Below, piece by piece: positions 1 through 45,756 of a stretch of DNA of 60,945 nt (position 1 is the first letter of the stretch; each line of letters opens with the position of its first letter). A model generated the notes under the pieces. It had not been told where the DNA came from and did not search any database. It was given only the letters and a program-made list of their open reading frames with translations. The stretch lies in NCBI GenBank assembly GCA_927433595.1, contig CAKMJY010000024.1, forward strand, positions 1 to 60,945, given 5' to 3'. Position numbers and translations under genes: made by a program. Source of the DNA: an uncultured Acholeplasmatales bacterium (GTDB lineage Bacteria; Bacillota_I; Bacilli_A; Acholeplasmatales; UBA5453).

Positions 1-177
1 GCCAGTCATAATGGTTGGTTCCATTGAACCTGATCCAACCACAGAATAAGAATGATTGAAAATCTTCAAATATCGATTTTGCTGAACAGCCATGGTGCCC
101 ATGACTAATAATAAGATAGAGGATGCGAAGAAAAATATCGTAAGAAAGGTTGTAAAAATCTTTAGTGATTTCTTCAT
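1..177 (-). CDS. Signal peptidase I, partial (3' end outside window)
   Basis: The 59 visible residues give a short basic N-terminus, one hydrophobic helix (about residues 8-30) and the box VVGSGSMEPTI, the catalytic-serine motif of type I signal peptidases; the Ser before Met would be the nucleophile. The ATG at 177-175 overlaps the TGA of the upstream coiled-coil gene in an ATGA arrangement, so the two are translationally coupled. The SGSMEPT form differs from the SDSME form of the SipW at 3817-4527, so the operon carries two different signal peptidases. The general base (Lys or His) lies beyond the window edge, so the bacterial or ER-like type cannot be told. Confidence 0.8.
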   Translation of the reverse strand, partial: MKKSLKIFTTFLTIFFFASSILLLVMGTMAVQQNRYLKIFNHSYSVVGSGSMEPTIMTG

Positions 178-2240
178 TCTTGGTCACCATCTGATTCAAT
201 CAGATCAATTGAGTCAACCGGTTTTGGTTTAGCTTTAGGCAAACCATTCTTCTTCAAATGTTCAATATCTTTTATTGCTGTTTTTTCAACATCTAGTAAC
301 ACTTTTTCTTGACGTTTTGCCATAGTAACTTTTAACTTTTCAAAGTCTTTTTGGAGTTTCTCTTGTTCCTTTTGTCTTTGAAGTTTGAGTTTTTTCACTT
401 GCTTATCATGTTCCGCTTTGGCTTTCTTCTTAAGATTAGCTACAACTAGCTTATATTGTGCCTTGGCTTTCTTTTCTGCCTCAGTAATCGCTAGTTTCTC
501 TTCTCTTTCTAACTTCTTAATCTCCTTAGCCTGTTCTTTTTCAAGTGCAGTCTTTTGAGTCTGGAAGTGTCTTTCAATGGTATTAATCTTAGTTTCAAGT
601 GATTTATTGAGTGAATCGGTTAATGTATTGATTAGGTCTTGGTTACGTTTTTCGTTCTTCTCAAACTCAGCCTTCACATTTTCATCGACCTGTTTCTTCT
701 CGATAGCCAAGTCTTCTCTATTTTTATTGACTAAGTCTAGGTTATCTTGTAAGACTTGTTGTTCCTTTTGAGCAATTTCTTTTTCCGCTCTCAAGGCTTC
801 TTCTATCTTGATACGTTCTAACTCATCTTCTGTTTTTTTCTTGTTCAGTTGAATCAAACGGTTATTAGCTAATTCGATATCTTTCATCAGTTTCTTTTCA
901 TGTCTGATGGCATTATTGTAGTCAACTTCTTTGGTTTCACGGATGATTCTAGCGATTTTTGCCTTTTCTTTGGCTTTTTCTAGGTTAGATAAGACGTCAT
1001 CGTCTTTAACCATTCTCGTAAATAAATCTTCATTCACTTCTAATTCAAAGTGATGTTGGAATATCGCATTACCAATTGCGATAGTATCTCTCAAAGCTCG
1101 CTTTAAACCAACTTCGTAGGTTGAACTCTTCTGAACTTCTTCATCCACTTGTTTTTTAAACAATTTAATGTTTTCTTGTAAGAAGTATTGGTTAATAATG
1201 TTATCCTCAACCACAATCGGTTCAGGTGTATCGATGTAATCATTGATGTGAATACTGGTTTGTTTTAGTGCTTTTTTGACTATTTCCTTGTCATTAATCT
1301 TGTTGTATTCATCGCGGTATACATTTTGGTTATAGGCTACTAAACTAAATGAGTTTAGGGCAAGTCTTTCAATGGCGTCTTGATAGTCATTTGTAATTGG
1401 TAAATCTTTTTCTTTTACCATGACATCATATGCCAGTGTATTATACTTATCTAAGAATAACCAAAGGACATAACAGTTTCTAAAATCCACGTTTTTCAGC
1501 ATAACGTTTGTCTGCATGATTGGCGGATTAACCTTTTTCTCATTCTTAAGCATATCCATGAAAGCGGAGTTTTTAATCGAAGACACACGTTTTAATAAAT
1601 ACTCCACACGTGATAAAATGCCTTGGTTATATTGATTGATGGATTTATCTTCTAGGTCTTCTTTAAAGACGACATCTAGGTTTAATTCCACTTCTAAGTC
1701 TGCAAAGTTAAAATTAGATAAATAGTTGAAGTGCTTTTTTTGATAGGAAATGATATTATCCTTAATCAAATCATGTCTAGAGCGAACAAAGGTAAAAAGC
1801 CGATCAATAAGCGTCATTACGAATCGGTTTTCATACGTACCATAGTCAATTTCAACTTCTTCAGTCATGATTTTCTTAGGCATCACGACTTCATCTCTGA
1901 TTTCTCGGATAAAGTGTGTATGGCTCGCTAAGTGTCTAACTGAACGACTTCTAATCTTTTTGGCTTTTTCAATTGCTACAACTTCTTCTAAGTATTTTAA
2001 CCCTGATTTAGGGTTTAATATGATTTTTTCAATGCTTGGGAAATAAGACTCAATCGTCTTAATCCAGGTTTCATCAAAAGTCTTTGTCTCTGACATTGCC
2101 TTTTGATAAGCGACGCTCTTACCATTCGCTAGTTGACTATAAAAGGTTTTAGGAAACGAGTGTTCTTTTTCAAGAGCTTTCATAGTTTGACTGTATGACT
2201 GATAGAACGCACTAAACTTGTCCGTTAGTCTTTTATTCAT
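174..2240 (-). CDS. DUF2357-like coiled-coil protein, partner of McrB-like AAA+ ATPase
   Basis: 688 residues. The N-terminal 400 resemble the DUF2357/McrC-like partner proteins of McrB-type ATPases, with the TYENRF motif at residues 135-140 that I associate with that family. From about 420 to 670 it is an almost uninterrupted Lys/Glu/Gln-rich coiled coil. I see no PD-(D/E)xK nuclease motif, no signal peptide and no membrane helix, so it is probably cytoplasmic and may lie on the membrane-bound ATPase encoded just upstream (10 nt gap). Start: AGGTGG, six bases, ATG. The family link is by motif memory only; role unknown. It ends with TGA overlapping the next gene. Confidence 0.6.
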   Translation of the reverse strand: MNKRLTDKFSAFYQSYSQTMKALEKEHSFPKTFYSQLANGKSVAYQKAMSETKTFDETWIKTIESYFPSIEKIILNPKSGLKYLEEVVAIEKAKKIRSRSVRHLASHTHFIREIRDEVVMPKKIMTEEVEIDYGTYENRFVMTLIDRLFTFVRSRHDLIKDNIISYQKKHFNYLSNFNFADLEVELNLDVVFKEDLEDKSINQYNQGILSRVEYLLKRVSSIKNSAFMDMLKNEKKVNPPIMQTNVMLKNVDFRNCYVLWLFLDKYNTLAYDVMVKEKDLPITNDYQDAIERLALNSFSLVAYNQNVYRDEYNKINDKEIVKKALKQTSIHINDYIDTPEPIVVEDNIINQYFLQENIKLFKKQVDEEVQKSSTYEVGLKRALRDTIAIGNAIFQHHFELEVNEDLFTRMVKDDDVLSNLEKAKEKAKIARIIRETKEVDYNNAIRHEKKLMKDIELANNRLIQLNKKKTEDELERIKIEEALRAEKEIAQKEQQVLQDNLDLVNKNREDLAIEKKQVDENVKAEFEKNEKRNQDLINTLTDSLNKSLETKINTIERHFQTQKTALEKEQAKEIKKLEREEKLAITEAEKKAKAQYKLVVANLKKKAKAEHDKQVKKLKLQRQKEQEKLQKDFEKLKVTMAKRQEKVLLDVEKTAIKDIEHLKKNGLPKAKPKPVDSIDLIESDGDQE

Positions 2241-2250
2241 GTCATACCAC

Positions 2251-3783
2251 CTAGCTCATTTTCTTTAGATCAGTTAGGAATGCGATGGATTCTTTAAATA
2301 CGTTTTTACCAAATAATTTATCTAATAATACCAATAGTTCACTGATTTCATCTTGTAAGAATGGTAAGTTTAATACTTCGAACTTACGTAAAATCTTACG
2401 AGCAACCATGTAATCAAGTGCTTCATATTCTGATCCACCACAACCTACAAAGATTGGGGTAAATAGTTTGATTTGTTTCATAATACGGTTACCGAATGTA
2501 ATCTTAAACTTAGCAGCGATGAAATCATCTAGTTTACCTAAGTTATCGAGTGCTTTTGGTGAGATTGGATTGGCTTTCCACGCAACTTCAAACAATGACA
2601 TCAAATACTCGTGACTGATTTTAACACCTTCGGTATAAGGTGCATCGACAAACTCGGCTTTCGCATTCATAACGATGGATGCGGCACGGTCATAGACTTT
2701 ATCGGTAATGGTGAATGTGGAGTCATCCTTATTCGCTGTCCCAACGAACCATAGGTTTTGTGGCACTAAAATCTTACCATCCACGAAGTGTTTAGGGTCA
2801 TTCGGTTGTCTATCTGAGACAACGTCAATCTTCCATTCTGACTCGTTTGGCATTTCCATGATGGATAAGAATTCTGCAAAGTAATATTCAATACGTGCTA
2901 AGTTCAACTCATCGAGTACGATAAAGTTTAAGTCCTCACGATAAGTTGTTTCATATAGTTCTTTTAAGAAATCTGTTTCATTAAACTTCTTGGTAAACTC
3001 ATTTAGGTACCCAATCATTTCGGCTCTATCACGCCATGACGGCTGTACAGATATGATGGCTGAGTCATGATTAAAGAATTTACCCATGGCATATGGTAGT
3101 GATGTTTTACCAGTACCAGAAATACCTTCTAGGATTAAAATCTTAGATGAAGCCATCCCTGCAAAATAGGTCATAATAATTTTTGGATTATAGTATAGAT
3201 TTAATCTAGATGCTGAGAAGTTTATGAATCTGTTGACTAATTCAGGTAAGCCCACTGTATCTTCTGCAGTCATTTGAACGGATGTAATGACATTTCTATA
3301 TTCATCATCCACTTGAGTTAATTTAGGGAATCTAGAAGGACCAACTGCTTGTGGTGTTGGTTTTTGTTCTTTCTCTTTACCAGGTAATTGTGACGAGGCA
3401 CTTGCACCACCCAATTTCAACATTAAAATCTTGTTTTTTTCATCTGCAAGTTCTACTGTTTTTTGGGTTAACAAAGCGACTTCCTCTAATAACTCGTCCT
3501 TATCCATTTCTGTTTTAACAAATCTGAAATAGGATCTAAATAATTGATAAACTTTGAGTGTTAGGAAAACAATAAAAACCATATTAATCCCAAGGATTAT
3601 TATGGCAATCAGCCAGTCTAAGAAGTTAAACTTAGCAGTGGCATTGATTAAATTTTGAAAATATTTAGCGACATCACTAAAAAAGAAATCGGCAAACGCA
3701 TCAAAAATAGTTTTGAAAAATTCGCCGATATTTGCAAAAAATTCTCTAATGAAGTCGACATAATAACGAGCAAAATTGATCAT
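2251..3783 (-). CDS. Membrane-anchored McrB/MoxR-like AAA+ ATPase
   Basis: 510 residues. An amphipathic Phe-rich N-terminus is followed by one transmembrane helix (about 54-77), a short coiled coil and a Lys/Pro linker, then an AAA+ module: Walker A GISGTGKTS (220-228), Walker B FIVLDELN (287-294), sensor-1 GTANKDDS (348-355) and a probable Arg finger in YDRA (364-367). The DELNLAR Walker B and GTxN sensor are typical of McrB-like ATPases. McrB proteins are normally soluble and partnered by a nuclease; here the ATPase is membrane-tethered and partnered by a coiled-coil protein. It lies 33 nt after sipW in the c-di-GMP-controlled operon, suggesting a role in assembly or surface display rather than restriction. 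GAGG precedes the ATG. Confidence 0.75.
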   Translation of the reverse strand: MINFARYYVDFIREFFANIGEFFKTIFDAFADFFFSDVAKYFQNLINATAKFNFLDWLIAIIILGINMVFIVFLTLKVYQLFRSYFRFVKTEMDKDELLEEVALLTQKTVELADEKNKILMLKLGGASASSQLPGKEKEQKPTPQAVGPSRFPKLTQVDDEYRNVITSVQMTAEDTVGLPELVNRFINFSASRLNLYYNPKIIMTYFAGMASSKILILEGISGTGKTSLPYAMGKFFNHDSAIISVQPSWRDRAEMIGYLNEFTKKFNETDFLKELYETTYREDLNFIVLDELNLARIEYYFAEFLSIMEMPNESEWKIDVVSDRQPNDPKHFVDGKILVPQNLWFVGTANKDDSTFTITDKVYDRAASIVMNAKAEFVDAPYTEGVKISHEYLMSLFEVAWKANPISPKALDNLGKLDDFIAAKFKITFGNRIMKQIKLFTPIFVGCGGSEYEALDYMVARKILRKFEVLNLPFLQDEISELLVLLDKLFGKNVFKESIAFLTDLKKMS

Positions 3784-3816
3784 CGTTTTACCTCAACCTA
3801 GTTATGCAATATATAA

Positions 3817-4527
3817 TTATTTTTGTTCTTTCTTGAGTTCTTCAAGTAATTCCTTACGAATTTTTTCTTTTTCGGCTTCTAAATCTTTTAATGATTGTTC
3901 TTTATCTTCTGCGTATTTAGCTTCTAATTTTTCTTTGTTAACTGCTAAAAGTGCCTTTGTAAGAACAAAGCCTTGGTATGCTAATAATATAACGACTGGT
4001 AAAATAATGAATAATGCAAAACCGACTGGTGTTTGTAAGTAGTTAACTGCTGAACCTACACCTGACCATGTACCTGTATGAACTGCTTTCACATTGTCAT
4101 ACGTTACAATTTGATAGTCTTTGCCAGTATTGTCACCTGCGATAACATAAGGGTTAATGGCATTCGCCTTATCACCTTGTGTGACGATATATGAATCTGT
4201 TACTTCTACCACTCTGTGTGTATTTAGAGCAGCAATGCTTAAATCGTAAAATGTAACAACATCGCCAATTTCAAGATTATCAACTTGGCTTTCTTTAATG
4301 GTTCTAACAAATAGTAAATCACCTTTGTTAAAACTATCAGAGTTGTCGCCTTCCATCGAATCACTTAGTACTGGTAAGAAACCCCTACCAAATACATTTG
4401 CGATATCTTTATCTGACTTAACAGTAAGATTCGCGATTGAAAATAGTAATAATAGTACGATTAAACCATAAAATAATACGTTACCAGCAATATTTAAGGA
4501 TTTTCTTAATGTTGAATTTTTATTCAT
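3817..4527 (-). CDS. sipW: SipW-type (ER-type) signal peptidase I
   Basis: An N-terminal membrane helix (about residues 13-33) is followed by FLPVLSDSMEG, with the nucleophile Ser before Met (about residue 57), then the LNTHRVVEV box carrying the catalytic His and a VTQGDKANAI box. The His replaces the Lys of ordinary bacterial LepB, which defines the SipW/archaeal/ER class known to process TasA-like proteins. A second helix and a Lys/Glu-rich charged tail close the protein. The ATG at 4527 was chosen because AGGAG lies eight bases upstream; the ATG six bases earlier is too close. It follows two SipW-type substrates, as in Bacillus tapA-sipW-tasA. Confidence 0.9.
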   Translation of the reverse strand: MNKNSTLRKSLNIAGNVLFYGLIVLLLLFSIANLTVKSDKDIANVFGRGFLPVLSDSMEGDNSDSFNKGDLLFVRTIKESQVDNLEIGDVVTFYDLSIAALNTHRVVEVTDSYIVTQGDKANAINPYVIAGDNTGKDYQIVTYDNVKAVHTGTWSGVGSAVNYLQTPVGFALFIILPVVILLAYQGFVLTKALLAVNKEKLEAKYAEDKEQSLKDLEAEKEKIRKELLEELKKEQK

Positions 4528-4633
4528 CGGCATATCTCCTATAGATTCTATAAATAACTAATATCATTATAATATAAAATATTCTTAAAATCTAGTGTTT
4601 ATGAGATATTCGTGATTACGGCTATATAAAGTT

Positions 4634-4659
4634 AAGGTTTGCGGGTTAGCGCAAACCTT
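4634..4659 (-). terminator. Intraoperonic hairpin between fibre genes and sipW
   Basis: A perfect 10-bp inverted repeat (AAGGTTTGCG / CGCAAACCTT) with a 6-base loop lies in the 160-nt gap between the third secreted-protein gene and sipW. The following U-run is weak, so it may be a partial terminator or an RNA-stabilising end that keeps fibre mRNA more abundant than sipW and the ATPase genes. Confidence 0.5.
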
Positions 4660-4694
4660 TATATTAATCAAAAAATATTTTATGCACCTAAAAG

Positions 4695-5714
4695 TTATTG
4701 TGCAGTTGCTTCATATTCAGCAAAATTCAATGAAACTGTTAATAATGTTTCAAAAATCGCATCAAATGTATCTGCATCCCAACCTTCAATCCAAACTCTA
4801 ACTGTTACATAACCACCAAAATAATCAGTGCTTGCAGTAGTTGTTAATGTCAACACTTTGCGCCCATTTACAGTGAAGGTTGTTGTTCCATCATTGTAGT
4901 CTGATGTTAAATCTGTAAGTGCATCAGGTATATTTGGTGCTTGCGTAAGTACTCTATCTAATCCGTTTGCTTTTTCATAAGATGATGCACCTCGTAAATC
5001 TGTACCGATTGTTGTACCTGTCAAATCATATGAAACTGCAGGTAAAGCTGTAGAATTAAATACAGTGGTCGTATCAGCGCCTGTCAACAATGCTTCATCT
5101 TGAACCACAACTGGATCAGCCATATTATCAGTAATTGATACTCTTGCTGCAGAAGATGCAGAAACAGTAAGTTGAGTAGGGTAATTTGTAATACCGTCTG
5201 ATTCATCTGGATCGATACCATATACAACATTATTTACATTTGTGAATGCATTGGAGTTGACCGTCCACACTTTTGCAGTGCCACCGATTACTGCGTTTGT
5301 CCAAGCTACATTTAGATTTTCAGTTCTAGATCTAAAATATAAATTAAACTCGACCCAACCTGAAGTTGCAGTTGTATTTTCCTGATCAGTAAAGTTTTCA
5401 CCATCAACGCTTGTGATGTTATCAAACTTAAATGTAGGATATTTCGCTTCAATAAAGTCTTGCATTACAGTTGCTGGAATTGCAGTATACCAAACGCTGT
5501 TTGCATCTCCATCATAGTTGATTTCTTGAACTCCAGTATTAAGGTATCCAAAAGATACTTCAATACCTTCACCTGAAGTCACTTGACCTTGAAATGACCC
5601 AACAGATGCACTGTTTTGTAGTGTAAACCATGCGAATGTTGATGTGCCTAAAGCTACAACTACAAGCGCCATTGTAATAACTGATAAAACTAATTTTTGC
5701 GTTAATTTTTTCAT
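4695..5714 (-). CDS. SipW-dependent secreted protein, TasA/camelysin-like
   Basis: 339 residues. Basic start MKKLTQK, a hydrophobic stretch, then LGTSTFAWFT, the form seen in SipW-dependent TasA/camelysin-type signal peptides. The mature part is rich in Thr, Ser, Asn and Asp with few Lys, no Cys and alternating hydrophobic residues, as expected for a beta-rich surface or fibre protein. Near the C-terminus VRVWIEGWDAD matches a motif in the two upstream genes. The purine-rich GGAAAAGGAAAA leader gives the ribosome site. It is nearest to the intraoperonic hairpin and is probably the most abundant product. Assembly into fibres is inference from family and context. Confidence 0.8.
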   Translation of the reverse strand: MKKLTQKLVLSVITMALVVVALGTSTFAWFTLQNSASVGSFQGQVTSGEGIEVSFGYLNTGVQEINYDGDANSVWYTAIPATVMQDFIEAKYPTFKFDNITSVDGENFTDQENTTATSGWVEFNLYFRSRTENLNVAWTNAVIGGTAKVWTVNSNAFTNVNNVVYGIDPDESDGITNYPTQLTVSASSAARVSITDNMADPVVVQDEALLTGADTTTVFNSTALPAVSYDLTGTTIGTDLRGASSYEKANGLDRVLTQAPNIPDALTDLTSDYNDGTTTFTVNGRKVLTLTTTASTDYFGGYVTVRVWIEGWDADTFDAIFETLLTVSLNFAEYEATAQ

Positions 5715-5799
5715 TTGTATTTTTCCTTTTCCTTTTCTTTTTTAATGTCTTTTATGTGTTTTAAAACTTTCACATATCTTAATTGTAATAGAAACCCTT

Positions 5800-6774
5800 T
5801 TAATTATCGAGTGGCAGTCCACTTTGAAATTCAAATTGTATCTGAAGTTCATCATCAAATACCGCGTCAAACGCGTCAGCATCCCATCCTTCTACCCAAA
5901 AGTTAATCATAAATTTTCCAATGTGGTAGTTTCTATTTTGATTATTTACCTCATCCGATTCCACTAGGCTTGCTACTCTGGATAATTGATTATCTGGTAA
6001 GTAAGCATTTGGATCTGTAAATGTGGTCAACCCGTAAGTAACTGTTTGTTCTTCTGTAGGGAGTTCAAAATATAGATTGTGATACTGTTTGATGAAGTCT
6101 GTTGCGCCAAATGTTTTGGCGAAACCTCTTGCTGGATTACCGCTCGGGTCCCATATAAAGCGGTTTAGCTCAGATTCTAATCTCGTGTCCGTGTCGTCAT
6201 ATAACATTTCTACAAAGGATACTCTAACAGCGTCTTTTGCATAATATGTTCTAACCTCACCTTCAAATACCGTCATGGTTGGACTATATTGATAGGTAAT
6301 CGGTGCTCTATAATTAACACCGCGCGATGTCACGTATGTACCTGTGTTAGGTAGGGCATCGTAACTCACTGACTGACTAACGTTATTCACTAAATATAAA
6401 TCTGTGTACATAGCGGAGGATGTTCTAACATAAAGCACCAATTGAATGTAGTTTTTGTTAGGTACCGCTTCAAAGTCTAAAACCCCTTCAACAAATGGTA
6501 TGGTTGTACCTGTGAAAGTTTGCCCATCATAAGTGGTCCAGTCCATTAACTTAGCCTCACCTATAATTGCGTTGATCTGTTGCTCATTGATTTCACTTGA
6601 ATAATTGATGCCATCCAATGAAAACTCTAAATTACTATCTTGCCTTGCAGTGATGTTAAACCCATCGACACGATTGGTTTCTGCAATGATTGCCCAGGCA
6701 AATGTTGACGTTGCTAGTGTTACCACCAGTAAAATCATGGCTAATATGGCGATGTATAGTTTTTTAACCATCAT
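5800..6774 (-). CDS. SipW-dependent secreted protein, TasA-like paralogue
   Basis: 324 residues with start MMVKKLYIAI, a hydrophobic helix and LATSTFAWAI at the expected processing region of a SipW-type signal peptide. The mature domain is beta-rich in pattern, acidic and Cys-free. The C-terminal FWVEGWDADAFDAVF closely matches the paralogue at 4695-5714 (WIEGWDADTFDAIF), so the two share a fold and probably pack or polymerise together. It begins one base after the TAA of the upstream gene, so translation is likely coupled. Two ATGs are adjacent and the second could equally be used. Confidence 0.75.
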   Translation of the reverse strand: MMVKKLYIAILAMILLVVTLATSTFAWAIIAETNRVDGFNITARQDSNLEFSLDGINYSSEINEQQINAIIGEAKLMDWTTYDGQTFTGTTIPFVEGVLDFEAVPNKNYIQLVLYVRTSSAMYTDLYLVNNVSQSVSYDALPNTGTYVTSRGVNYRAPITYQYSPTMTVFEGEVRTYYAKDAVRVSFVEMLYDDTDTRLESELNRFIWDPSGNPARGFAKTFGATDFIKQYHNLYFELPTEEQTVTYGLTTFTDPNAYLPDNQLSRVASLVESDEVNNQNRNYHIGKFMINFWVEGWDADAFDAVFDDELQIQFEFQSGLPLDN

Positions 6775-6775
6775 T

Positions 6776-7504
6776 TTAACCTAATACATCAAATATCATA
6801 TCGAGCTTGATACTGCCTCGTTCGCTAGAAGGATTGGTATCATAGCCTTCAATCCACATAAATAACGAAATTTTTCTAACTTGTCCAACTTGAAGCATTT
6901 GAATGGTCTCGTTGGCGACTAATTCATCTGAGATAAAATATTTAGGAACTGGATACTCAGGCGGGTAATACTTGACTTCATCATCTGGTTTCATGTAGAG
7001 GTTCTGTGTCACATTACCTTCTAAATCGTCCACTATAATTAATACACGTATGTACTCATCCATTTCTTTAAGCACATCTAAAATATTGATACTGTAGACT
7101 AAATCGATCATCTCATTACCTGAATTCTTTAGGTAAAAAGTATAAGCCATGTAATCTGCTCTTGGATCAAAGAATGACCCGTCTGTGTTGGTTGCATCCT
7201 CAATTCGAAGATAGCTATATGTTGCATCTTCCATTTTTAAGTTTTTTTCGTCTTCGAAATCAACTGGGAATGCATTTAGGCGTGTTGTCCAAACGGTTTG
7301 GTCATGATTTGATTCTGCAATTTGAATCCCACGTTGTTCAGGGACATCTGCCATTTCAATGACGAATGTACCAGTGGATAGACCGTAAAATGTGACAACC
7401 CCGAATCCGAGTGAAAGTAGACCGAACAAAATCATCCCAAGGGTGACCAGTCTTGCAAACGCGGACGCCGTTTTTTTTACACCAAGTACGGTTGATAATC
7501 TCAT
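6776..7504 (-). CDS. Membrane or secreted protein with WIEGYD motif, first gene of the operon
   Basis: 242 residues. A basic N-terminus is followed by one hydrophobic helix (about residues 17-42) without an obvious TFAW-type processing site, so it may stay membrane-anchored and act as base or adaptor for the two SipW substrates, a TapA-like role (inference). The C-terminal LFMWIEGYDTNP matches the WIEGWDAD and WVEGWDAD motifs of the next two proteins. The start at 7504 has AAGGGG seven bases upstream. A longer frame back to 7546 would need a TTG start inside the riboswitch terminator and is rejected. Confidence 0.7.
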   Translation of the reverse strand: MRLSTVLGVKKTASAFARLVTLGMILFGLLSLGFGVVTFYGLSTGTFVIEMADVPEQRGIQIAESNHDQTVWTTRLNAFPVDFEDEKNLKMEDATYSYLRIEDATNTDGSFFDPRADYMAYTFYLKNSGNEMIDLVYSINILDVLKEMDEYIRVLIIVDDLEGNVTQNLYMKPDDEVKYYPPEYPVPKYFISDELVANETIQMLQVGQVRKISLFMWIEGYDTNPSSERGSIKLDMIFDVLG

Positions 7505-7542
7505 TCTCACACCCCTTTTCTCAACTACGCTGTATTTTTTAT

Positions 7543-7636
7543 ACAAAAAAGCCAGCTATCATTGAGAAATGACAACTGGCTACCATTTACAGGCCCTTTA
7601 GCTTTGCGTCGCTAGATTTCTCTAGTTTTGCCTTTA
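7543..7636 (-). promoter_or_regulatory. c-di-GMP-I (GEMM-I) riboswitch with terminator
   Basis: On the minus strand the leader reads GGCAAA, a CTAGA-GAAA-TCTAG hairpin with GAAA tetraloop, GACGCAAAGC, then GGGCCT and GGTAGCC, matching the conserved blocks of the GEMM-I aptamer. It runs into an inverted repeat (7551-7580) followed by six U residues, a classical expression platform ending 40 nt before the first operon gene. Known GEMM-I RNAs bind c-di-GMP; two GGDEF-EAL genes lie directly upstream. Whether ligand turns transcription on or off cannot be read with certainty. Confidence 0.88.
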
Positions 7637-7662
7637 ACATATAAAAATATTAATACACCGTT

Positions 7663-7691
7663 ATAATATCAAGAAACAAAATCAATGTCAA
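7663..7691 (-). promoter_or_regulatory. SigA-type promoter for the c-di-GMP operon
   Basis: TTGACA (7691-7686), a 17-base spacer and TATTAT (7668-7663), preceded by an extended -10 TG. It sits right before the riboswitch and just after the stop of the GGDEF-EAL gene. Confidence 0.8.
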
Positions 7692-7700
7692 GCAGAAAAC

Positions 7701-9125
7701 TTAATTTTTTATTAAATTCTCTAAATCGGTTTCCTTGTAGTATAGTTTTAGGTTATCAAATGCCATTGGACGGGCAAAATAGAACCCTTGGACGATATCG
7801 ATGTTATAGCCTTTGACCATACCCAACATATCTTCATTTTCAATACCTTCTGAAATAATGGTCTTCTGATTCTTCTCTGCAAACTCAACCAATAAGTTAA
7901 CGAATCTCGATTTCACATAAGAATGTTCTTCATTTAAGAATTCTTTGGATAACTTAATCGTATCGAGCGGCATCGATTCTAACTTCGCTAGTGTGGCATA
8001 ATCTAACCCGAAGCCATCAACCGCAAACTGGAAGCCCAACGTCTTTAATTGCGTGATGTTTTGTAAGACGACGTTGTGTTTGTCGAATAAGGCAAACTCA
8101 ACGATTTCTAAGACGATATTTTCAGCATTCATCTTATATTTCTTTAATACCCTTTGGAAATCGACTGCTAGTGCTTCATTCATCAACTGTTTAGGGCTAA
8201 TATTAAAGGTAAATTTGATGTTAGATTTTGGATAAGCTTGCTTAAATTCATAGTAATTCTTGATCAATGACTCTAAGCCCCATAAACCAACCCAGTAAAT
8301 ATCACCAGATTGTTCCATGATGTTAATAAACTTAAATGGGGATAATAACCCGTGTTCTGGGTGATTCCATCTCAGTAAGGCTTCAACGCCATAAACTTCT
8401 TTACTCTTAATATCTATGATTGGATGATAATATAGTAAGAATTCTTTTTTCGCAATCGCGTTTTTGATTTGATAATAGTAATCTAAGAACTCTGCTTCTG
8501 TTTCACTCATGTCTTCACTATAAAGTCTAATCGCATTACCACCAGTCTTTTTAACGGTGTAATTCGCAAGCTTTAATGAATTGATCAATGCTTTTGAGGT
8601 TTCACCATGCATTGGGAAATAAGCAATTGAAATAGATGCGGTTAAATTCACATCGGTTGAACCGAATAACGTGATAGATTCATTCACCTGTTCTTGAATA
8701 CGTCTGGATAACTCATGGGCATCGCCTTGGTCGTAATCAACTGGGACAAAGATCACGAATATATCTTCTTCAAAGCGTGCAGCTTTACAGTCTTTAGGTA
8801 ACGCTTGACGCATTCTTTTAGTAATTTTTTCGATGATTTTTGCCGATTCTTTTTCACCAAATGCTTGGACGATTTCTGAGAATCTATCAATATCAATATA
8901 AATGAGTGAGAACATCGCATCTTTCCCAATTTTTGAGATATAAGATGAGATTAAGCTATTCATGGCACTTCTGGAAATGATCCCTTCAACCATGATGGAG
9001 CGTTCTTCACGCCATTTACGTTCTGTATAACGGACATTGATGAATAAAAAGTAAGCGGCCACCATCGTACCTAAGGCGATAAATAGGAATATGACCAATG
9101 CAGTTGTAGGATTAATGTCGTTCAC
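7701..9125 (-). CDS. GGDEF-EAL protein with both active sites altered
   Basis: 474 residues: one N-terminal membrane helix (about 8-30), a GGDEF-fold domain (about 45-205) and an EAL domain (about 215-465). The GGDEF signature is replaced by EEDIF, so cyclase activity is unlikely. The EAL domain keeps GVEALLRW, FNISPKQL and SEGIENED, but the DDFGTGYSSL loop reads VDGFGLDYATL, losing the second metal-binding Asp, so phosphodiesterase activity is also doubtful. It may be a membrane c-di-GMP receptor. It lies four bases after the stop of a second GGDEF-EAL gene and directly before the c-di-GMP riboswitch operon, suggesting a signalling role for that operon (inference). Confidence 0.88.
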   Translation of the reverse strand: MNDINPTTALVIFLFIALGTMVAAYFLFINVRYTERKWREERSIMVEGIISRSAMNSLISSYISKIGKDAMFSLIYIDIDRFSEIVQAFGEKESAKIIEKITKRMRQALPKDCKAARFEEDIFVIFVPVDYDQGDAHELSRRIQEQVNESITLFGSTDVNLTASISIAYFPMHGETSKALINSLKLANYTVKKTGGNAIRLYSEDMSETEAEFLDYYYQIKNAIAKKEFLLYYHPIIDIKSKEVYGVEALLRWNHPEHGLLSPFKFINIMEQSGDIYWVGLWGLESLIKNYYEFKQAYPKSNIKFTFNISPKQLMNEALAVDFQRVLKKYKMNAENIVLEIVEFALFDKHNVVLQNITQLKTLGFQFAVDGFGLDYATLAKLESMPLDTIKLSKEFLNEEHSYVKSRFVNLLVEFAEKNQKTIISEGIENEDMLGMVKGYNIDIVQGFYFARPMAFDNLKLYYKETDLENLIKN

Positions 9126-9129
9126 TATG

Positions 9130-11670
9130 TCACCTCTTCTTCATTAAGAGCGGCGCGCTCTTATCTATATTATATGCTTTTATAATCTCGATTGCATCCT
9201 CAAGTTTCATCGCTTTACCAATATAGAACCCTTGGATGACTTCACAACCAGCCTTTTGTAAGAACTTGTATTGCTTGTCATCTTCAACCCCTTCAGCGAT
9301 GATACTTAAGTCTAGATTCTTCGCTAAAGAGATGATCATATTAATAATCGCGCGTGAGTGCTTATCTGAATTGGAATACTTGGTAAAGTCTTTATCAATC
9401 TTGATGGCATTGATAGGTAGTTCTTTTAAGTATAGTAATGAGCTATACCCTGTCCCAAAGTCATCTAAGTGGATATCAAAGCCTCTTGCTTGTAGTAATT
9501 TAAGCTTTTCAATGATCATATCAAATGAGGTCATTAAGAAGGTTTCAGTGATTTCAATTGAAATCGAGTGTTCTTTTAATTCATGACGTTCAAATGAGTT
9601 TACAATTTCCGCGACAAACCCAGCTTGTAGGATTTGAACCGGTGAAATGTTCATGGAGATTTTAATGTTATATGGTTCTAAGATTTTAGCCAGTCTAAAT
9701 GTTTCTTCCATGACAATACGACCAATGTCGATGATCATGTTGTTGTTTTCGGCAATCTCAATAAACTCAGCTGGTGAGTCTAACTTATATTTAGGATTAT
9801 CCCATCTGACTAGTGCTTCAAATCCGATGATTTTCTCACTGATTAATGAGAATTGTGGCTGTAGGTACATGACAAACTCATGACGGTCAATCGCACTCAT
9901 CATATCGGTTTCAATGACTTGGCGTCTAGATAAGCTTTGCCCGAATGTCACGTCATAAACCACTGGTTTTTGAGAGTGATACGCAGCTGCTCTATTGAGC
10001 GCTAGGATGGTATTATCATAAATCTTATCTTCATTTAGGTTTTGATAAGCATCTGAATCGATGTTAAACTGACCAATTCTAAATTGTAAGACGAACTTGT
10101 TCTTATCGACATCAATTGGTTTTTCAAAGATCTTGACCAATTCATCTGCCCATTCTTCTACGGTATCATATGACGTTAAGTTTTCAAATAGAATCCCAAA
10201 TCGGTCAAATGAAATGTGATAAAGTCTTGTGTGGTACTTCTCTAATGTCTTTTTAACGTTTTCAGATACATATTGTAACACTTCACCAGATAACTTTTCA
10301 CCGATGACCTTTGTAATATCACCATACTTATAAATCCCAAAAATCACTAGTACATTTCTGTGTCTCATGCGTTTTTGGTCATTGCTTAAGACTTTTAAGT
10401 CAGCCTTTAAGTAGTTCATATTAGGTTCATTGGTGATTGGGTTATAAAAGGCGATTTCTCTGTGGTATTTATAGGTTTCTTCTAGTTTCGTAATATCATC
10501 ACCAATTAACGCATAGGTTAAGGCATACTTCACTGGTATGAAACGTATATAAACCTCACCTTGTGGGGTTTGGAATACACACACAAACGGTTCTTGTTTT
10601 TTCACACGTTCCTTGATGTTTTCGCCGCCATCGCGGAGGGTAAACTGATTGACGTGTTTATACTTCTTAAAATTCTTGAATGCACGTTTAAAACTGGCAT
10701 TGTAGAAATAGATTTTACCTTTGCCATTGGTTTTGACGATATGTGGTTTGACATAATAGTGGATGAGTCTTGCAGATTCGATGTCTTCATTTTTAAGTAA
10801 TAATAGTCGGTAAAGCATGGCTAAACCAAAAATGAATAATATAAAAATGGTAATGAATGCGAACATTAAGGATCTGGTTAAGTAATCCATGGTATCGATC
10901 AACGTGTTGTATTCGACTGCTTGTCCAAAATAGATGTTGTCGGTTGTGTCTAAAGAAGACATCAAATTATAGGCAAAGAACATATCTTGTTCGAATAACC
11001 CTAATTGACTCACGCCATGAATTTGTAAAGACCCATTTAAATCCTCAAAGAACTTATCTTGATCATTATTGTTGATAGATGACCCAAGCTGTGTGGTTGA
11101 AATGAGATTGTTTTCGTCTAATAAAACATACCCATCTTTGTGAAATATCACAAATCGATGTTCAATCGATGTAAATGGGGCTAAAACGGTTTCGATATAG
11201 TGAAGCGCATCGATAAACACGATGTAGTTTTGATATTCAAACGCAATATAGTTCGTATCATCTGAGTAGTTAGCCAAAATCATATCCAGTGGATAGATGG
11301 TCACTATTTGATTGTAATAGGAATTTGAAACATAAATTGGTAAATAAGGATATAAAGTGCCTTCAATCGTATACCCTAAATCACTCTTTAACGCAACCAA
11401 GTCATAACTGTCCATGGCTTCTAATTCAGCTACAACATCCGCATTATCGGATATTAGTTCATCCACAACGTCTTGATATGCAATTTCTGTTTGGTTTATG
11501 GTGGATTCTAATTGAGTTGAAATCCCGATATTAAAAGAGGATAGATTTTCAACTGCTTTATCTGATATAAAGTTTTGTGTGATGGACATGTAAAAAAAGA
11601 CCATCACTGTGGACAACACTAAGAAGAATATCGCAAAAATTGAAATTAACTGTAAGTTATACTTGCGCAT
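9130..11670 (-). CDS. Membrane sensor GGDEF-EAL protein, probable c-di-GMP phosphodiesterase
   Basis: 846 residues. Two membrane helices (about 8-30 and 265-290) enclose an extracytoplasmic domain of about 230 residues, Cache-like by layout. Then come a PAS-like segment, a GGDEF-fold domain whose signature reads SFDRF (inactive), and an EAL domain with GFEALVRW, MNISPVQI, IEITETFLM, LDDFGTGYSSLLYL, KIDKDF and AEGVED, all catalytic elements intact. It probably hydrolyses c-di-GMP in response to an outside signal. The ATG at 11670 was chosen because AAGGAG lies seven bases upstream; the frame extends further without a better start. It forms an operon with the degenerate GGDEF-EAL gene. Confidence 0.9.
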   Translation of the reverse strand: MRKYNLQLISIFAIFFLVLSTVMVFFYMSITQNFISDKAVENLSSFNIGISTQLESTINQTEIAYQDVVDELISDNADVVAELEAMDSYDLVALKSDLGYTIEGTLYPYLPIYVSNSYYNQIVTIYPLDMILANYSDDTNYIAFEYQNYIVFIDALHYIETVLAPFTSIEHRFVIFHKDGYVLLDENNLISTTQLGSSINNNDQDKFFEDLNGSLQIHGVSQLGLFEQDMFFAYNLMSSLDTTDNIYFGQAVEYNTLIDTMDYLTRSLMFAFITIFILFIFGLAMLYRLLLLKNEDIESARLIHYYVKPHIVKTNGKGKIYFYNASFKRAFKNFKKYKHVNQFTLRDGGENIKERVKKQEPFVCVFQTPQGEVYIRFIPVKYALTYALIGDDITKLEETYKYHREIAFYNPITNEPNMNYLKADLKVLSNDQKRMRHRNVLVIFGIYKYGDITKVIGEKLSGEVLQYVSENVKKTLEKYHTRLYHISFDRFGILFENLTSYDTVEEWADELVKIFEKPIDVDKNKFVLQFRIGQFNIDSDAYQNLNEDKIYDNTILALNRAAAYHSQKPVVYDVTFGQSLSRRQVIETDMMSAIDRHEFVMYLQPQFSLISEKIIGFEALVRWDNPKYKLDSPAEFIEIAENNNMIIDIGRIVMEETFRLAKILEPYNIKISMNISPVQILQAGFVAEIVNSFERHELKEHSISIEITETFLMTSFDMIIEKLKLLQARGFDIHLDDFGTGYSSLLYLKELPINAIKIDKDFTKYSNSDKHSRAIINMIISLAKNLDLSIIAEGVEDDKQYKFLQKAGCEVIQGFYIGKAMKLEDAIEIIKAYNIDKSAPLLMKKR

Positions 11671-11776
11671 GCATGTGCTCCTTATATTCAACAAATACTT
11701 TTAGAAACATATTGAAAAAGCTAACGCCCTTTTTGGTTAGTTAACATTTATATATTTTATTATATCATTTAAAGAT

Positions 11777-11816
11777 AAAAATGCACCATTTTACAATCAA
11801 ACGGTGCATTTTTTGT
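11777..11816. terminator. Bidirectional terminator between GGDEF-EAL and GH3 genes
   Basis: AAAATGCACC pairs with GGTGCATTTT around a loop, with a T-run on the plus side and an A-run on the other. It can end GH3 transcripts reading leftwards after the repeat array. Confidence 0.7.
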
Positions 11817-11837
11817 TTTTATAGATAATTTTTATGT

Positions 11838-11995
11838 GTTTATTACACCATTATTGGTGTCATTATTACACCATTAAAGATGCATACTGCATCACTACTG
11901 ATGTCTTATTTACACCAACACTGATGTCTTATTTACACCAACACTGATGCTTTCCGCATCATTATTGGTGTCTAACTTACATCATTATTGATGTC
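11838..11995. repeat. Tandem 22-23 bp hairpin repeats after the GH3 gene
   Basis: About seven head-to-tail units with approximate consensus TTAnTTACACCAnnAnTGATG TC. Each unit contains a short dyad such as ACACCA-TTAT-TGGTGT or GCATCA-CTAC-TGATGT. Two neighbouring units (near 11908-11950) are almost identical; the others vary, often by paired changes between the ACACC/GGTGT and GCATC/GATGT forms. The array runs into the last codons of the GH3 gene. There are no unique spacers, so it is not CRISPR. It could be a protein-binding array, an RNA-stabilising 3' end, or a slipped-strand expansion. Confidence 0.75.
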
Positions 11996-14900
11996 TTACT
12001 AACACGAGGCGTTTGATCTTTAAGCCTGTTCTTAAGGCTTTGATTGAACATAGGAACTTGCCTTGATTCAATACGATTTGCGAAACAACTTTGATATAAT
12101 TACCATCTGTCCCATTGGTCGTTAAAGTTGATTTAACCTCATCACCAATTAATATCGAGAATGGAATTTGGGCTAGATTTGACTCATTAGAGGCGATTTC
12201 TAGTTCAAATATGTATTTTGAATAGACTGCGACATTTAAACCAAAGCTGATGATGCCATCTTTATTAAAATCAACAATGCCATCTTTGATATGAATGTGT
12301 TCATTGGTATGTAACGGATTGGATAAGTTAATCTCAGTTTGTCCCCATGGGTGTTCATTCACTTTGACAACTTTTTCTAACGCAATTTTCTCATAATCAA
12401 ATGCATCGGTTTGTTTTTTACGGATTAAGTTAGTCACCATATAGGTATTTTGTTCATACCCATTTGATACCACGATTAAAGTCGTATGTAACCCTTTTTC
12501 AACCATGACTTTTAAGCCTTTTTGAGCCTCAGCTTCGACATTAAAATAGTTTTTCGCATCGACGACATAGTGGCCAGTTAATGGGTTAAAGTTTTCAAGG
12601 GCTTTACCATTGACTTTAATGCCATCTAAATATGGCATAAAGAAATGTGGTGTTTTTGGTTTAAAGGCAATCGCGTGTTTATTTCTAAATGCTAATGAGT
12701 CAGAAACGAAATAAGCGATGTTTTTCGCAACCCTCTGAAGTTCACCAACCGATAAAGTCTTATTGTCTAAGGATGGGATGGTGTTATCATTCATAGAGTT
12801 ATCTTTCGCATTTTGAACCACCATATATAAATCATTTTGAGCCTTAATCATCGCTCTCGTATTCGATTTATCGCCTGGCGTGTTTTCTTCGTTCATCTTT
12901 GCCCACCAGTCAGTCATGATGATGCCTTTAAAGCCCCATTCTTTTCTGACAATCGTGGTGTTTAAATCATAATTGGATGCTGCCCATATCCCATTAATTG
13001 GGTTATATGACGTCATAATGGCTTTTGCATTGGCACCTTTGACTGCGATTTCAAATCCTTTTAGATAGATTTCTCTTAAAGCACGTTCTGAGATGATTGA
13101 ATCCGCATCAAAACGTCGCTTTTCTTGGTTATTAGCAGCTAAGTGTTTGAGTGTCCCTGTGACACCTGCACTTTGAAGCCCCAAGACCACAGATTTTGCC
13201 ATATGACCGGTTAAGAATGGGTCTTCAGAGAAGTACTCAAAGTTTCTACCACATAGTGGGTGTCTATGAATGTTCATCCCAGGTCCTAAGAGTATATCAA
13301 TCTTATAGTTGGTCATTTCAAGGCCAACTAAGTAATAAAGTGCTTCCACTAAAGATTCATTGAATGACGATGCTAGAAGCGTGCCATTTGGTAAGCTCGT
13401 TGCAGGCATCCCTGAATCCATTCTGATCCCTGAAGGGCCATCTGAACAACAAATAATTGGGAACCCAAAATCTTGAAGGGCTTCTGTCACCCCACCAAAT
13501 GCACTGGCTGTCCCAGGTGTGACCTTAGGACTACTCATCCCTTCGCCTCTAACCAATTCTGCTAGGGCAGTTGTAGGGATTTGTGAGATAAAGGCGTCCA
13601 AACTGACCTTATGGTCATAAAAGTCCTTTAAATCGCGTTTTTGTGTGCATGTATTAAAGTGTTCATTTGGTTCATTTTCTAAGATTCTTTGTTTGATATC
13701 ATAGGAGCGTAATGGTGTATCTTCATAAACTGCCGATACGCCAGTTTCTGTTTCTTTGGCAACCAAACGTTTAAACGGTTTGATTGGTCTTAGTGCTTCA
13801 CCTAGTTTTTCAATGAGTTGATCTTCATATAGTGAGAACTCAAAATGGGCAATGGTATTGCTGATATCTGTACCGATATAAACGGTATAAGTCCCTTTTT
13901 CTAAGACATAGCTGTTTTTAAAACCAGTTAAGCCTAGTTCATCGTATGAGGCAAAATCTTTTTTATCGAATGTGATAGTCACAACATCCGATTCATTCGC
14001 TTCTAATCTGGCCGTTTTTCTAAAGCCTACCAATACCTTAGCTGGTTTACCAAGCTGACCATTTGGAGCAGACACGAATGCCATTAAGACATCTTTGCCA
14101 GGCAGTGGTCCTGTGTTTTTAACTTCAATCTCAAATTGGAATTTTAATAAGTCGTACGATTTGACTTGGTATTCAAATGTCGAATAAGATAACCCAAATC
14201 CAAATGGGTATCTGACTGCTTCTTTTTTAAATGTTTCAAAGTAACGATAACCAACATAGACATCTTCTTGATAGAAATTGTAGTCATCGCCACCAAAGTT
14301 ATCATTGGATGGGTAGTCCTCTAAATGATAGGCAATCGTGTTTGGGAGTTTACCAGATGGGTTTTGAATGCCAGTCAAGATATCAGAAACCGCTCTGCCG
14401 CCTTCTTCACCACCATGCCAGACATATAGACAGGCATCAATGTCGTAAGTATCTAGGAAAGACATATCGATGACATTACCTACGTTTAAGACAATGGTGA
14501 CCTTTTTAAAGTGCTCAGATACCATTTTCACCATATCGATTTCTGAGTCTGATAAATAATAAGACCCTTTGGTTGGGGTATTGTCTTTATCCTCACCAGC
14601 GGTTCTACCAATGATGATCACTGCTTGTTCAGAGAAATGCTTGGCCTTTTCGATGATATCCTCGGATAAAGGCATTTCAACTTGGCTCCAAGGTTCACTT
14701 GCCCACATCCCAGACCCAGCATTAAACGGATTGTCCTTTTGCCAATCTAGGTAGGTATTGAGTAATGTTTCATTGACCATCACGCGTGGGTTTTCCAATA
14801 ACGCATCGATGATGGATGTTTTTTCTAGTGTGTTAACTAACCCACCAGACCCAGTACCACTTTTATAGTAATCGGTTTGAATACGACCAAATACATTGAT

Positions 14901-16863: not shown

Positions 16864-18039
16864 TTAACTAGTTGATTTATTTAGTAAGCGATACTGATAG
16901 TAATCGATTAAACTTGCACCAATTGGGGCTGTGATTAAAATCGATAAAACGGCGATGGTTAACATGTCATTGCCTCTACTTAACCCCATCGATAGCGGGA
17001 TTGAACCAATCGATGCTTGAACGGTTGCTTTCGGTAAATAAGATATCACAACAAAAAGCTTCTCTTTACCTGTCAATTTGGTTTTCAATAAAGATAAGAA
17101 TACGCCAATGGTTCTAATAACTAATGCGAATAAAATGAGTGATATGGCGATTAACCCAACGCTTTCTAATGTGTTGATGTCCATGGCAGCACCGACTAAA
17201 ATGAATAATAACATTTCCGCAAACACCCATATTTTTTCATACTTCTTCAATAAACGGTTTGCCAGTATTGGATAATCTTTTAAGATCATGATGGCTAAAC
17301 TAATGATGGAAAGTAACCCACTATAAGGTATCCAAGCTTTTTCAAGTCCAATTAATAAGAAAGATATCCCTAAAATAACCAATACTTTAGCAGTATCCCT
17401 GACATGGATTTGTTTAAACAATCTGGATAACAAGAACCCAACGCTTAAACCAATAAGAATGCCTAAGAGGATGCTAACAGGTAATAAGATAATGGCACCA
17501 ACATCAAACTGTTGTGTCTCAGTTAAGGATATACCTAGTGTGAATAGTAAAATAACATAAATATCATCTGCCGATGCACCTGCCATCACCATTTGAGGTA
17601 CCTTATTCGTATACCCTACTTTTTCTTCAATCAAACGGATCATTCTCGGTACAATCACAGCTGGTGATACCGCTGCTAAAATCGTTCCCAAGATAAACCC
17701 ATCTAGGATAGACCAGTTTAAAAACAATGTTGTAAATAAAATCGTCCCAATGATTTCAAAGGTTGCTGGCAAGAATGTTAATAATATAGCCCCTAAGCCG
17801 TTTTCTTTTAAATCTTTGATATCCAGTAAAAAGCCAGCTCTTAATAAAATCACGACCAACGCAATGGTTCTGAGTTCACTTGAAATCGTTAAAATACTGG
17901 TGTCGATTTGATTTAACACAAAAGGCCCTAATATTACTCCAGTGATGATAAACCCAATTAAACTTGGTAATTTGATGGCCTTAAAGATAAAGGACAATGA
18001 TAAACCCAACAGTAACATATAAGCGAGTGATAATAACAT
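16864..18039 (-). CDS. Cation:proton antiporter (CPA family) under fluoride riboswitch
   Basis: 391 residues with about 12 hydrophobic helices and the CPA-type pattern (GFIITGVILGPFVL, LRAGFLLDIKDL, AAVSPAVIVPRMI, GASADDIYVILL). The Asp in GASADDIY lies where ion-binding Asp residues of this family occur. Because a fluoride riboswitch lies immediately upstream, its physiological job is probably fluoride or acid export during fluoride stress, a known association for this transporter class; Na+/H+ exchange is the alternative. The ATG at 18039 has AAAGGAG nine bases upstream. The longer frame, starting at 18144, is riboswitch sequence and is rejected. Confidence 0.85.
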   Translation of the reverse strand: MLLSLAYMLLLGLSLSFIFKAIKLPSLIGFIITGVILGPFVLNQIDTSILTISSELRTIALVVILLRAGFLLDIKDLKENGLGAILLTFLPATFEIIGTILFTTLFLNWSILDGFILGTILAAVSPAVIVPRMIRLIEEKVGYTNKVPQMVMAGASADDIYVILLFTLGISLTETQQFDVGAIILLPVSILLGILIGLSVGFLLSRLFKQIHVRDTAKVLVILGISFLLIGLEKAWIPYSGLLSIISLAIMILKDYPILANRLLKKYEKIWVFAEMLLFILVGAAMDINTLESVGLIAISLILFALVIRTIGVFLSLLKTKLTGKEKLFVVISYLPKATVQASIGSIPLSMGLSRGNDMLTIAVLSILITAPIGASLIDYYQYRLLNKSTS

Positions 18040-18057
18040 AAAATTAATCTCCTTTAT

Positions 18058-18150
18058 AAAAAAAACTTCTACAACAAAAAAGTTGTAGAAGTCATCAGCT
18101 TTAAAAGCGGTTTTAGCCGTGCTAAGGGCGAACCTCATGCCCATAATTAG
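18058..18150 (-). promoter_or_regulatory. Fluoride (crcB) riboswitch with terminator
   Basis: On the minus strand GGGCATGAGGTTCGCCC (18142-18126) is followed by an AC/GGC stem and GCTGATGACTTCTAC, the two hallmark blocks of the fluoride aptamer. The final CTTCTAC also starts a perfect 10-bp terminator stem CTTCTACAAC/GTTGTAGAAG (18091-18066) with eight U residues, so ligand binding would prevent the terminator. The antiporter ATG is 18 nt after the U-run. Confidence 0.9.
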
Positions 18151-18177
18151 GATATGCTTTTTTTAACATTTTGTCAA
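18149..18177 (-). promoter_or_regulatory. Promoter of the fluoride-riboswitch antiporter
   Basis: TTGACA (18177-18172), 17-base spacer, TATCCT (18154-18149), ending seven bases before the aptamer. Confidence 0.75.
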
Positions 18178-26311: not shown

Positions 26312-26345
26312 GAAACAGTCGAATTAAAACATAAAAATCTTTTTT

Positions 26346-26446
26346 TAGACTGAACAAGCGGTAATCTCTTTAGATTATGCAGCCGGGCCTTTAGGCAACA
26401 GCATACTTAGGTATCTGTGGGACAGCAACCCACAGGTTTTTTTTAT
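26346..26446 (+). promoter_or_regulatory. NiCo (czcD) riboswitch with terminator
   Basis: The leader contains the purine-rich junction blocks AACAAGCGG, GCAGCCGGGC, GGCAACAGC and GGGACAGC, separated by short stems (TAATC/GATTA, GCC/GGC, ATAC/GTAT), which fits the four-way junction of the Ni2+/Co2+ riboswitch. The last stem CTGTGGG/CCCACAG is followed by eight U residues and doubles as terminator. The next gene is a cation diffusion facilitator, the usual target. Assigned by eye; a covariance-model search would settle it. Confidence 0.75.
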
Positions 26447-40909: not shown

Positions 40910-40919
40910 GGTTGTAAAT

Positions 40920-41180
40920 TCGATGATTGAGAATAGTAACTTATATACCTTAGTATCAAGCGAGTGCATGGTGGTGAAAGATGCATATACATAAGTTTAA
41001 GTGAATGGCCTCATGAGAAGCGGGGTGAACTAATAGTAGCCTAAGCCGTTACACCTACGTTATCGGGTGAAAAATATTAAAGTCTTAAGTGATGGCGTAT
41101 TTTGATAAGGAGAAACTTAGTTTCTTAAATTTGGGTGGTACCACGAGCAATTCGTCCCTACGGGTGAATGCTCTTTTTTT
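40920..41180 (+). promoter_or_regulatory. trpB leader: T-box riboswitch, apparent Trp specifier
   Basis: Stem I carries an AGCGAG block and distal GGTGGTGAAAG loop; on its 3' side GTGAATGGCCTC gives TGG as likely specifier codon, matching the downstream gene. The antiterminator block GGGTGGTACCACG is at 41133-41145. The competing terminator is GAGCAATTCGTCCC / CGGGTGAATGCTC (41145-41173) plus seven U residues. Uncharged tRNA-Trp would allow readthrough into trpB. Confidence 0.9.
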
Positions 41181-45750: not shown

Positions 45751-45756
45751 AGGTAA

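Follow-up and report, generated by a model that had tools for sequence, protein, structure and literature searches.

A conserved operon of a wall-less bacterium, apparently induced by c-di-GMP through an RNA switch, and its probable role in an adhesive surface structure

The window, the whole stretch of 60,945 nucleotides of an uncultured Acholeplasmatales bacterium that was analysed here, comes from a 1.6-Mb assembly of 133 contigs, the genus of which also includes Paracholeplasma vituli. At the left end of the window, where the contig terminates at base 1, lies an operon carried entirely by the minus strand (Table 1). Behind an aptamer and a terminator, the genes follow in the order T3, T2, T1, SipW, ATPase, partner and second signal peptidase (SP2). 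An earlier note on this DNA had described a promoter, an aptamer, a terminator, genes sharing a WxEG[WY]D end, SipW, the ATPase, its partner and a signal peptidase, and all of these were confirmed, so that the operon is real. It is conserved and apparently induced by c-di-GMP via the RNA switch, and its product is probably an adhesive cell-surface structure that it builds or displays. The regulation and composition of the operon are well supported; a motor role of its NTPase is what we infer.

Table 1. Features of the operon and its upstream neighbours in the window
Feature	Position	Strand	Basis or detail
Sigma-70-type promoter	7663..7691	-	TTGACA (7691-7686), 17-nt spacer, TATTAT (7668-7663); sequence reading
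c-di-GMP-I (GEMM-I) riboswitch aptamer	7568..7642	-	RF01051 59.9 bits, E 3.1e-9; own-genome scan
Intrinsic terminator hairpin, AGCCAGTTGTCATT-TCTC-AATGATAGCTGGCT + T-run	7550..7581	-	5′ arm overlaps aptamer 3′ strand
T3, 242 aa, secreted or membrane-anchored, C-terminal WIEGYD	6776..7504	-	Profile match starts at 7504
T2, secreted, mostly-beta, SipW-type signal, C-terminal WVEGWD	5800..6774	-	AF2 model pLDDT 86
T1, secreted, SipW-type signal (LGTSTFAWFT), C-terminal WIEGWD	4695..5714	-	Sequence
SipW, signal peptidase I of ER/archaeal type	3817..4533	-	TIGR02228 61.6 bits; NF046067 3.7e-20
Probably membrane-anchored McrB-like AAA+ NTPase, NxD motif	2251..3783	-	PDB profile match, motifs, hydropathy
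Partner: DUF2357 (McrC N-terminal) head + ~247-residue helix	174..2240	-	Homologue profiles; AF2 model
Second signal peptidase (SP2), cut by contig end	1..177	-	Complete homologues in L021-L024
GGDEF-EAL protein 1, conserved upstream neighbour	7701..9125	-	EAL 1.5e-55, GGDEF 5.4e-18; motif survey
GGDEF-EAL protein 2, conserved neighbour, two membrane segments	9130..11694	-	EAL 2.9e-63; motif survey

The W-x-E-G-[WY]-D motif near the C-terminus is common to T1, T2 and T3 and is retained in related loci. SipW-type signals (TSTFAW), which had been attributed to two of the T proteins, were found as claimed on T1 and T2, and T3 has a plainer, hydrophobic N-terminus. Among T1 sequences, the motif G-T-x-x-F-A-W-F-T is invariant or nearly so, and the SipW-cognate signal model TIGR04088 gave one sub-threshold match among 27 T1 members (E 0.47). 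The linkage of the genes and the GTxTFAWF motif suggest that the T proteins could depend on SipW. SipW itself scored above the NCBIfam TIGR02228 cut-off of 51.85 bits and, with 72 bits, below the equivalog cut-off of 190 of SigPepSipWBacil (NF046067). SP2 is complete (216-221 aa) in relatives, one of which matched Pfam Peptidase_S26 just short of the cut-off (5.2e-4). The likeness to TasA proposed in the earlier note was supported by neither sequence nor fold searches. Profile searches of the PDB with T1 and T2 yielded no meaningful sequence match, Foldseek with the confident T2 model returned nothing below E 0.3, and hence no solved structure and no recognised pilin or TasA fold, and Pfam/NCBIfam searches with the 27 T1 sequences gave sub-threshold Camelysin matches in two (best E 0.11).

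The aptamer, whose score lies above the RF01051 gathering cut-off of 35 bits, passes the covariance model, and in the leader fragment its 3′ strand and the 5′ arm of the terminator share positions 62-70. Because the 5′ arm of the hairpin is the 3′ strand of the aptamer, the two folds are mutually exclusive, and therefore a ligand-stabilised aptamer should block termination; from this shared strand, the riboswitch is predicted to be an ON switch. A shared-strand terminator occurs in about 50 of 68 aptamers of related loci, and in most aptamers the AGCCAGTTG strand of the aptamer itself doubles as the 5′ arm of the terminator, with the opposite arm being variable. The aptamer keeps its position in orthologous loci. 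One to three copies stand directly upstream of 34 of the 49 T3 genes examined, and further aptamers often precede a second unit of secreted proteins. Of the 15 T3 genes lacking an upstream aptamer, one (L045) is preceded by little sequence, others belong to the first copies of systems duplicated in tandem or to orthologues of these (L049, L051-L053, L055-L058, L061), and the rest are those of L116, L130, L132, L136 and L137. In complete or near-complete genomes, this operon is the main riboswitch target, holding three of the four c-di-GMP-I aptamers of A. laidlawii (G032), the single one of G028 and of G042, both of G046 and four of the six of G044.

Other RNA elements were encountered beside these. 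Downstream of a conserved c-di-GMP-I aptamer at L063 10625-10699 (-), L066 7995-8069 (-) and L067 8483-8557 (+), no ORF on the same strand reaches 70 aa for about 2 kb, a region occupied by opposite-strand genes. At L064 (G000:C73), an aptamer at 1191-1265 (-) lies directly before a GGDEF gene, where feedback is possible. The window also contains a fluoride riboswitch at 18079-18151 (-), at the start of ORF 16864-18144, a NiCo riboswitch at 26340-26427 (+) and two T-box leaders at 40914-41162 (+) and 45550-45754 (-).

The two genes before the promoter both encode GGDEF-EAL proteins. In the motif survey, protein 1 had a degenerate GGDEF domain lacking the signature and, in its EAL domain, DG where the metal motif is normally DD, and it is a probable c-di-GMP sensor or weak enzyme; protein 2 kept the EAL and DDFG motifs intact beside a degenerate GGDEF signature, and it is a probable c-di-GMP phosphodiesterase. 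In A. laidlawii, 14 GGDEF/EAL proteins, absent from previously sequenced mollicutes, were noted in 2008 (PMC2408644). That note alone was clearly relevant among the literature found on c-di-GMP or GGDEF with Acholeplasma, and a limited literature search recovered no paper stating what these proteins control; on SipW with Acholeplasma, no literature was found.

The likeness of the ATPase to McrB, already proposed in the earlier note, was borne out by a profile of 28 homologues, which matches E. coli McrB structures in the PDB (6hz4 and others, E 7e-4); by motif, the protein is more likely a GTPase than the ATPase it had been called. Across the 28 homologues there is no variation in Walker A, in the sensor N-x-D-D or in most of Walker B (LDExN). 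The NxD motif reads N351-K-D353-D354, with N and both D invariant, and its register is fixed by a 900-aa paralogue reading NRDE. On the criteria that Bell et al. (PMC11090510) give, these residues place the protein in the NxD branch. Its N-terminus shows a hydrophobic segment at about 48-84 and a heptad-like stretch, a putative coiled coil, at about 91-125, as read from sequence and hydropathy. For the partner, DUF2357 was matched in 15 of 26 homologues (best 5.8e-12; 42.6 bits in L044 against a cut-off of 23.3), the window copy alone giving no match, so that the DUF2357 identity rests on sequence profiles. The AF2 model of the partner combines a folded head with a continuous helix at 416-662. 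Foldseek with this model gave no significant match and did not recover McrC, probably because of the long helix and the low pTM. Neither the ATPase nor the partner matched a nuclease family, and apart from SipW, SP2 and the predicted anchor of the ATPase, no protein that could serve as a dedicated pore or as a coupler across the membrane was identified.

Further NxD-type genes were observed in the same genomes and in others. A second ATPase paralogue of about 900 aa with many hydrophobic segments, represented by L035 (G000:C25) 8029-12257, L033, L034, L036 and L037, adjoins a DUF2357-like protein of about 517 aa with a zinc ribbon, outside the surface operon; the NRDE motif was read in the window genome's copy. 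At L107, L123, L124 and L125, in several families of the class, ATPase-partner-ATPase clusters adjoin proteins of about 850-1,700 aa and look like a different, perhaps defence-type, NxD system.

The gene set described in the earlier note is conserved outside the source genome. The ATPase was found in 10 of the 13 genomes of the family and the partner in the same 10, so that the two co-occur in every family genome having either. The broader ATPase family extends to 93 of 150 genomes of the order and 140 of 395 of the class, and every match to it in a phylum sample fell within this class. T3, which marks the system most specifically, is present in 81 of the 395 class genomes. A full-length ATPase accompanies it in 78 of these 81 and occurs in 21 of the 314 genomes without T3 (Fisher OR 363, P 1e-58, with genomes counted as independent and phylogeny uncorrected). 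At 64 of 91 T3 places, the ATPase lies within 12 kb; of the 27 places beyond this distance, 24 are on contigs without the ATPase, many being short fragments. With variations, about ten families of the class keep the order T3-(T2)-T1-SipW-ATPase-partner-SP2, and loci with T3-T1-SipW but without the ATPase were not seen in any number (at most three of the 81 genomes, where assembly gaps are possible). Where the loci are duplicated in tandem (L049, L051, L052, L055-L058), neither an adjacent partner nor an aptamer accompanies the first ATPase copy; therefore, neither is strictly needed by every copy. L061 was grouped with these systems and their orthologues, and the second copies, where seen, have both partner and riboswitch.

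Additional small secreted proteins of SipW type make up the second unit together with a giant repeat protein, which measures about 2,400 aa where complete in the family and is longer in some other families. The unit often has its own aptamer and lies downstream of the operon in L025, L040-L046, L049, L101 and L109, and on another contig in the window genome (L141). Within the genus of the window, a directly downstream position did not hold, the unit being mostly on other contigs or elsewhere (L141-L143), where no aptamer was found with it. In A. laidlawii and two relatives, the last gene encodes a protein of 708-745 aa with a match to CBM5/12 carbohydrate-binding modules, which exceeds the cut-off in two of these three genomes; the A. 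laidlawii protein, with its chitin/polysaccharide-binding modules, is at L104 2445-4682. In a sister operon type (L027, L028, L030, L031, L103, L113), the ATPase-partner pair is preceded by an EAL-type protein, for which the label is weak in L031, and by a giant protein in which 13 cadherin-like repeats are combined with a membrane segment at the C-terminus; this type has no SipW or T proteins, and the stretches examined contained no c-di-GMP-I aptamer. Read from their sequences, the contents of the second unit and the sister operon point to adhesion.

Several known systems resemble parts of the operon. In Clostridioides difficile, c-di-GMP riboswitches control surface adhesins and pili. The surface and assembly proteins of our operon are unrelated to those. 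Bacillus TapA-SipW-TasA likewise joins a SipW-type signal peptidase to linked secreted substrates, whereas the operon shows no TasA/camelysin match and contains the AAA+ pair and a c-di-GMP riboswitch. The sipW-bsaABCRSD genes of Clostridium perfringens (PMC7395162) also combine SipW with secreted proteins, which polymerise into a filamentous matrix, with SipW being required for BsaA secretion and polymerisation; unlike the operon, they are under two-component control and have no AAA+ pair. With E. coli McrBC, a type IV restriction system, the operon shares the AAA+ GTPase fold and a DUF2357 activator, but its NTPase has NxD instead of NxxD, a predicted membrane anchor and no DNA-binding domain that we could find. 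A nuclease on or beside the McrC homologue, the trait of McrBC and CoCoNuT, was not detected in the pair, and the gene neighbours are of surface type.

The closest likeness is to CoCoPALM, and the claim of an undescribed system was accordingly too strong, since this combination of AAA+ protein, DUF2357 partner and signal peptidases was named in 2024. In the accessible text of Bell et al. in eLife (PMC11090510), CoCoPALM occupies one paragraph, uncharacterised and deferred to a later paper. The name covers NxD GTPases that come with signal peptidases, coiled coils and a membrane helix; the criteria given are an NxD usually followed by D/E, an FtsB-like N-terminal helix with a coiled coil, and a DUF2357 partner. 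By its motifs and gene linkage, the locus matches this description in its NxD McrB-like NTPase, its coiled-coil McrC/DUF2357 partner and its linked signal peptidases, SipW and SP2; the membrane helix and coiled coil predicted at the N-terminus of the NTPase may correspond to the FtsB-like part. In the literature searched, the term was found only in Bell et al. and its preprint, other matches to it seeming unrelated. The accessible text mentions no riboswitch, no SipW-type substrates and no mechanism. To the published description, the operon adds a c-di-GMP-I riboswitch of predicted ON type, T1-T3 with their WxEG[WY]D end, two signal peptidases, a second unit that ends in CBM5/12 or giant surface proteins, and linked EAL proteins. 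Riboswitch control, candidate substrates, adhesion-type end proteins and conservation are new relative to the literature found.

We hold with moderate confidence that the operon encodes a surface apparatus for adhesion which c-di-GMP induces and in which a CoCoPALM-type motor, a repurposed motor of the McrBC type, drives export or assembly. In favour of this reading speak the aptamers at the operon across the class, the company that T3 keeps with the ATPase and the ATPase with its partner, the McrB and DUF2357 matches, the surface-type end proteins and the need for SipW in C. perfringens (PMC7395162); against it count the T2 model without a recognised fold, the first tandem copies without adjacent partner or aptamer, the failure of Foldseek to recover McrC and the lack of an identified pore or coupling protein. 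At high c-di-GMP, the bound aptamer would hold its 3′ strand and block the overlapping terminator, so that the operon is read through in vivo. T1-T3, with the SipW-type and giant or carbohydrate-binding end proteins of the second unit where present, would leave the cell via Sec and be cleaved by the operon's own two signal peptidases. The McrB-like protein could sit with its N-terminus in the membrane and its NTPase ring, presumably a hexamer, in the cytoplasm, where the DUF2357 protein may dock and stimulate hydrolysis as McrC does for McrB. The long coiled coil of the partner might then relay movement to the export or assembly site, so that the surface structure is assembled, anchored or released, and the two upstream EAL proteins would lower or sense c-di-GMP, closing the loop. 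GTP use, topology, coupling and fibre formation are suggested by analogy with McrBC and with SipW-BsaA (PMC7395162). The c-di-GMP-riboswitch-controlled surface operon with an AAA+ machine proposed in the earlier note is supported, with control being predicted, and the energy-dependence and fibre formation that it also proposed may apply. A bolder version can be put forward only tentatively: a GTP-driven surface organelle, in which a membrane-anchored McrBC motor free of nuclease and DNA recognition exports or assembles adhesive fibres of wall-less bacteria and their relatives under direct control of the c-di-GMP riboswitch, as a main output of the otherwise puzzling Acholeplasma c-di-GMP network.

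Other explanations could account for the NTPase pair. It might regulate or chaperone the signal peptidases or Sec export without being a mechanical assembly motor, which we regard as unlikely. In most loci, the pair is indeed flanked by the genes for SipW and SP2, and signal-peptidase linkage partly defines CoCoPALM (PMC11090510), but a processing switch would need neither so long a coiled coil nor an NTPase ring. SipW of Bacillus functions without an NTPase partner. In C. perfringens, SipW also works without one (PMC7395162). Somewhat less likely still is envelope defence, in which the McrB-DUF2357 pair, merely co-regulated with the surface structure, would be a restriction or abortive module guarding it or firing on phage adsorption. 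McrBC and CoCoNuT relatives have established or predicted functions in defence (PMC11090510), and other NxD-type pairs of the same genomes lie outside surface operons (L033-L037); on the other hand, no nuclease, HEPN or methyltransferase was found with the partner, the NTPase pair is tied to a c-di-GMP riboswitch, and the core order is kept in about ten families with sequence-related T proteins, unlike mobile defence islands.

That the locus is simply a matrix operon for biofilms, like TapA-SipW-TasA, whose transcript happened to take in unrelated genes, appears highly improbable. SipW, the SipW-type secreted proteins and the Bacillus and Clostridium parallels would fit it, but the searches described above gave no TasA/TapA sequence or fold match, and the near-constant company of T3 and the ATPase, and of the ATPase and its partner within the family, argues against chance inclusion.

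An adhesion apparatus with a CoCoPALM-type motor would supply candidate substrates and a regulator for the CoCoPALM class, which is named but uncharacterised, and would make surface assembly its likely task. Because three of the four c-di-GMP-I riboswitches of A. laidlawii sit in one operon, a concrete and testable output of c-di-GMP can be named in this culturable species. If true, this reading would carry the McrBC motor beyond DNA restriction into the biology of the envelope.
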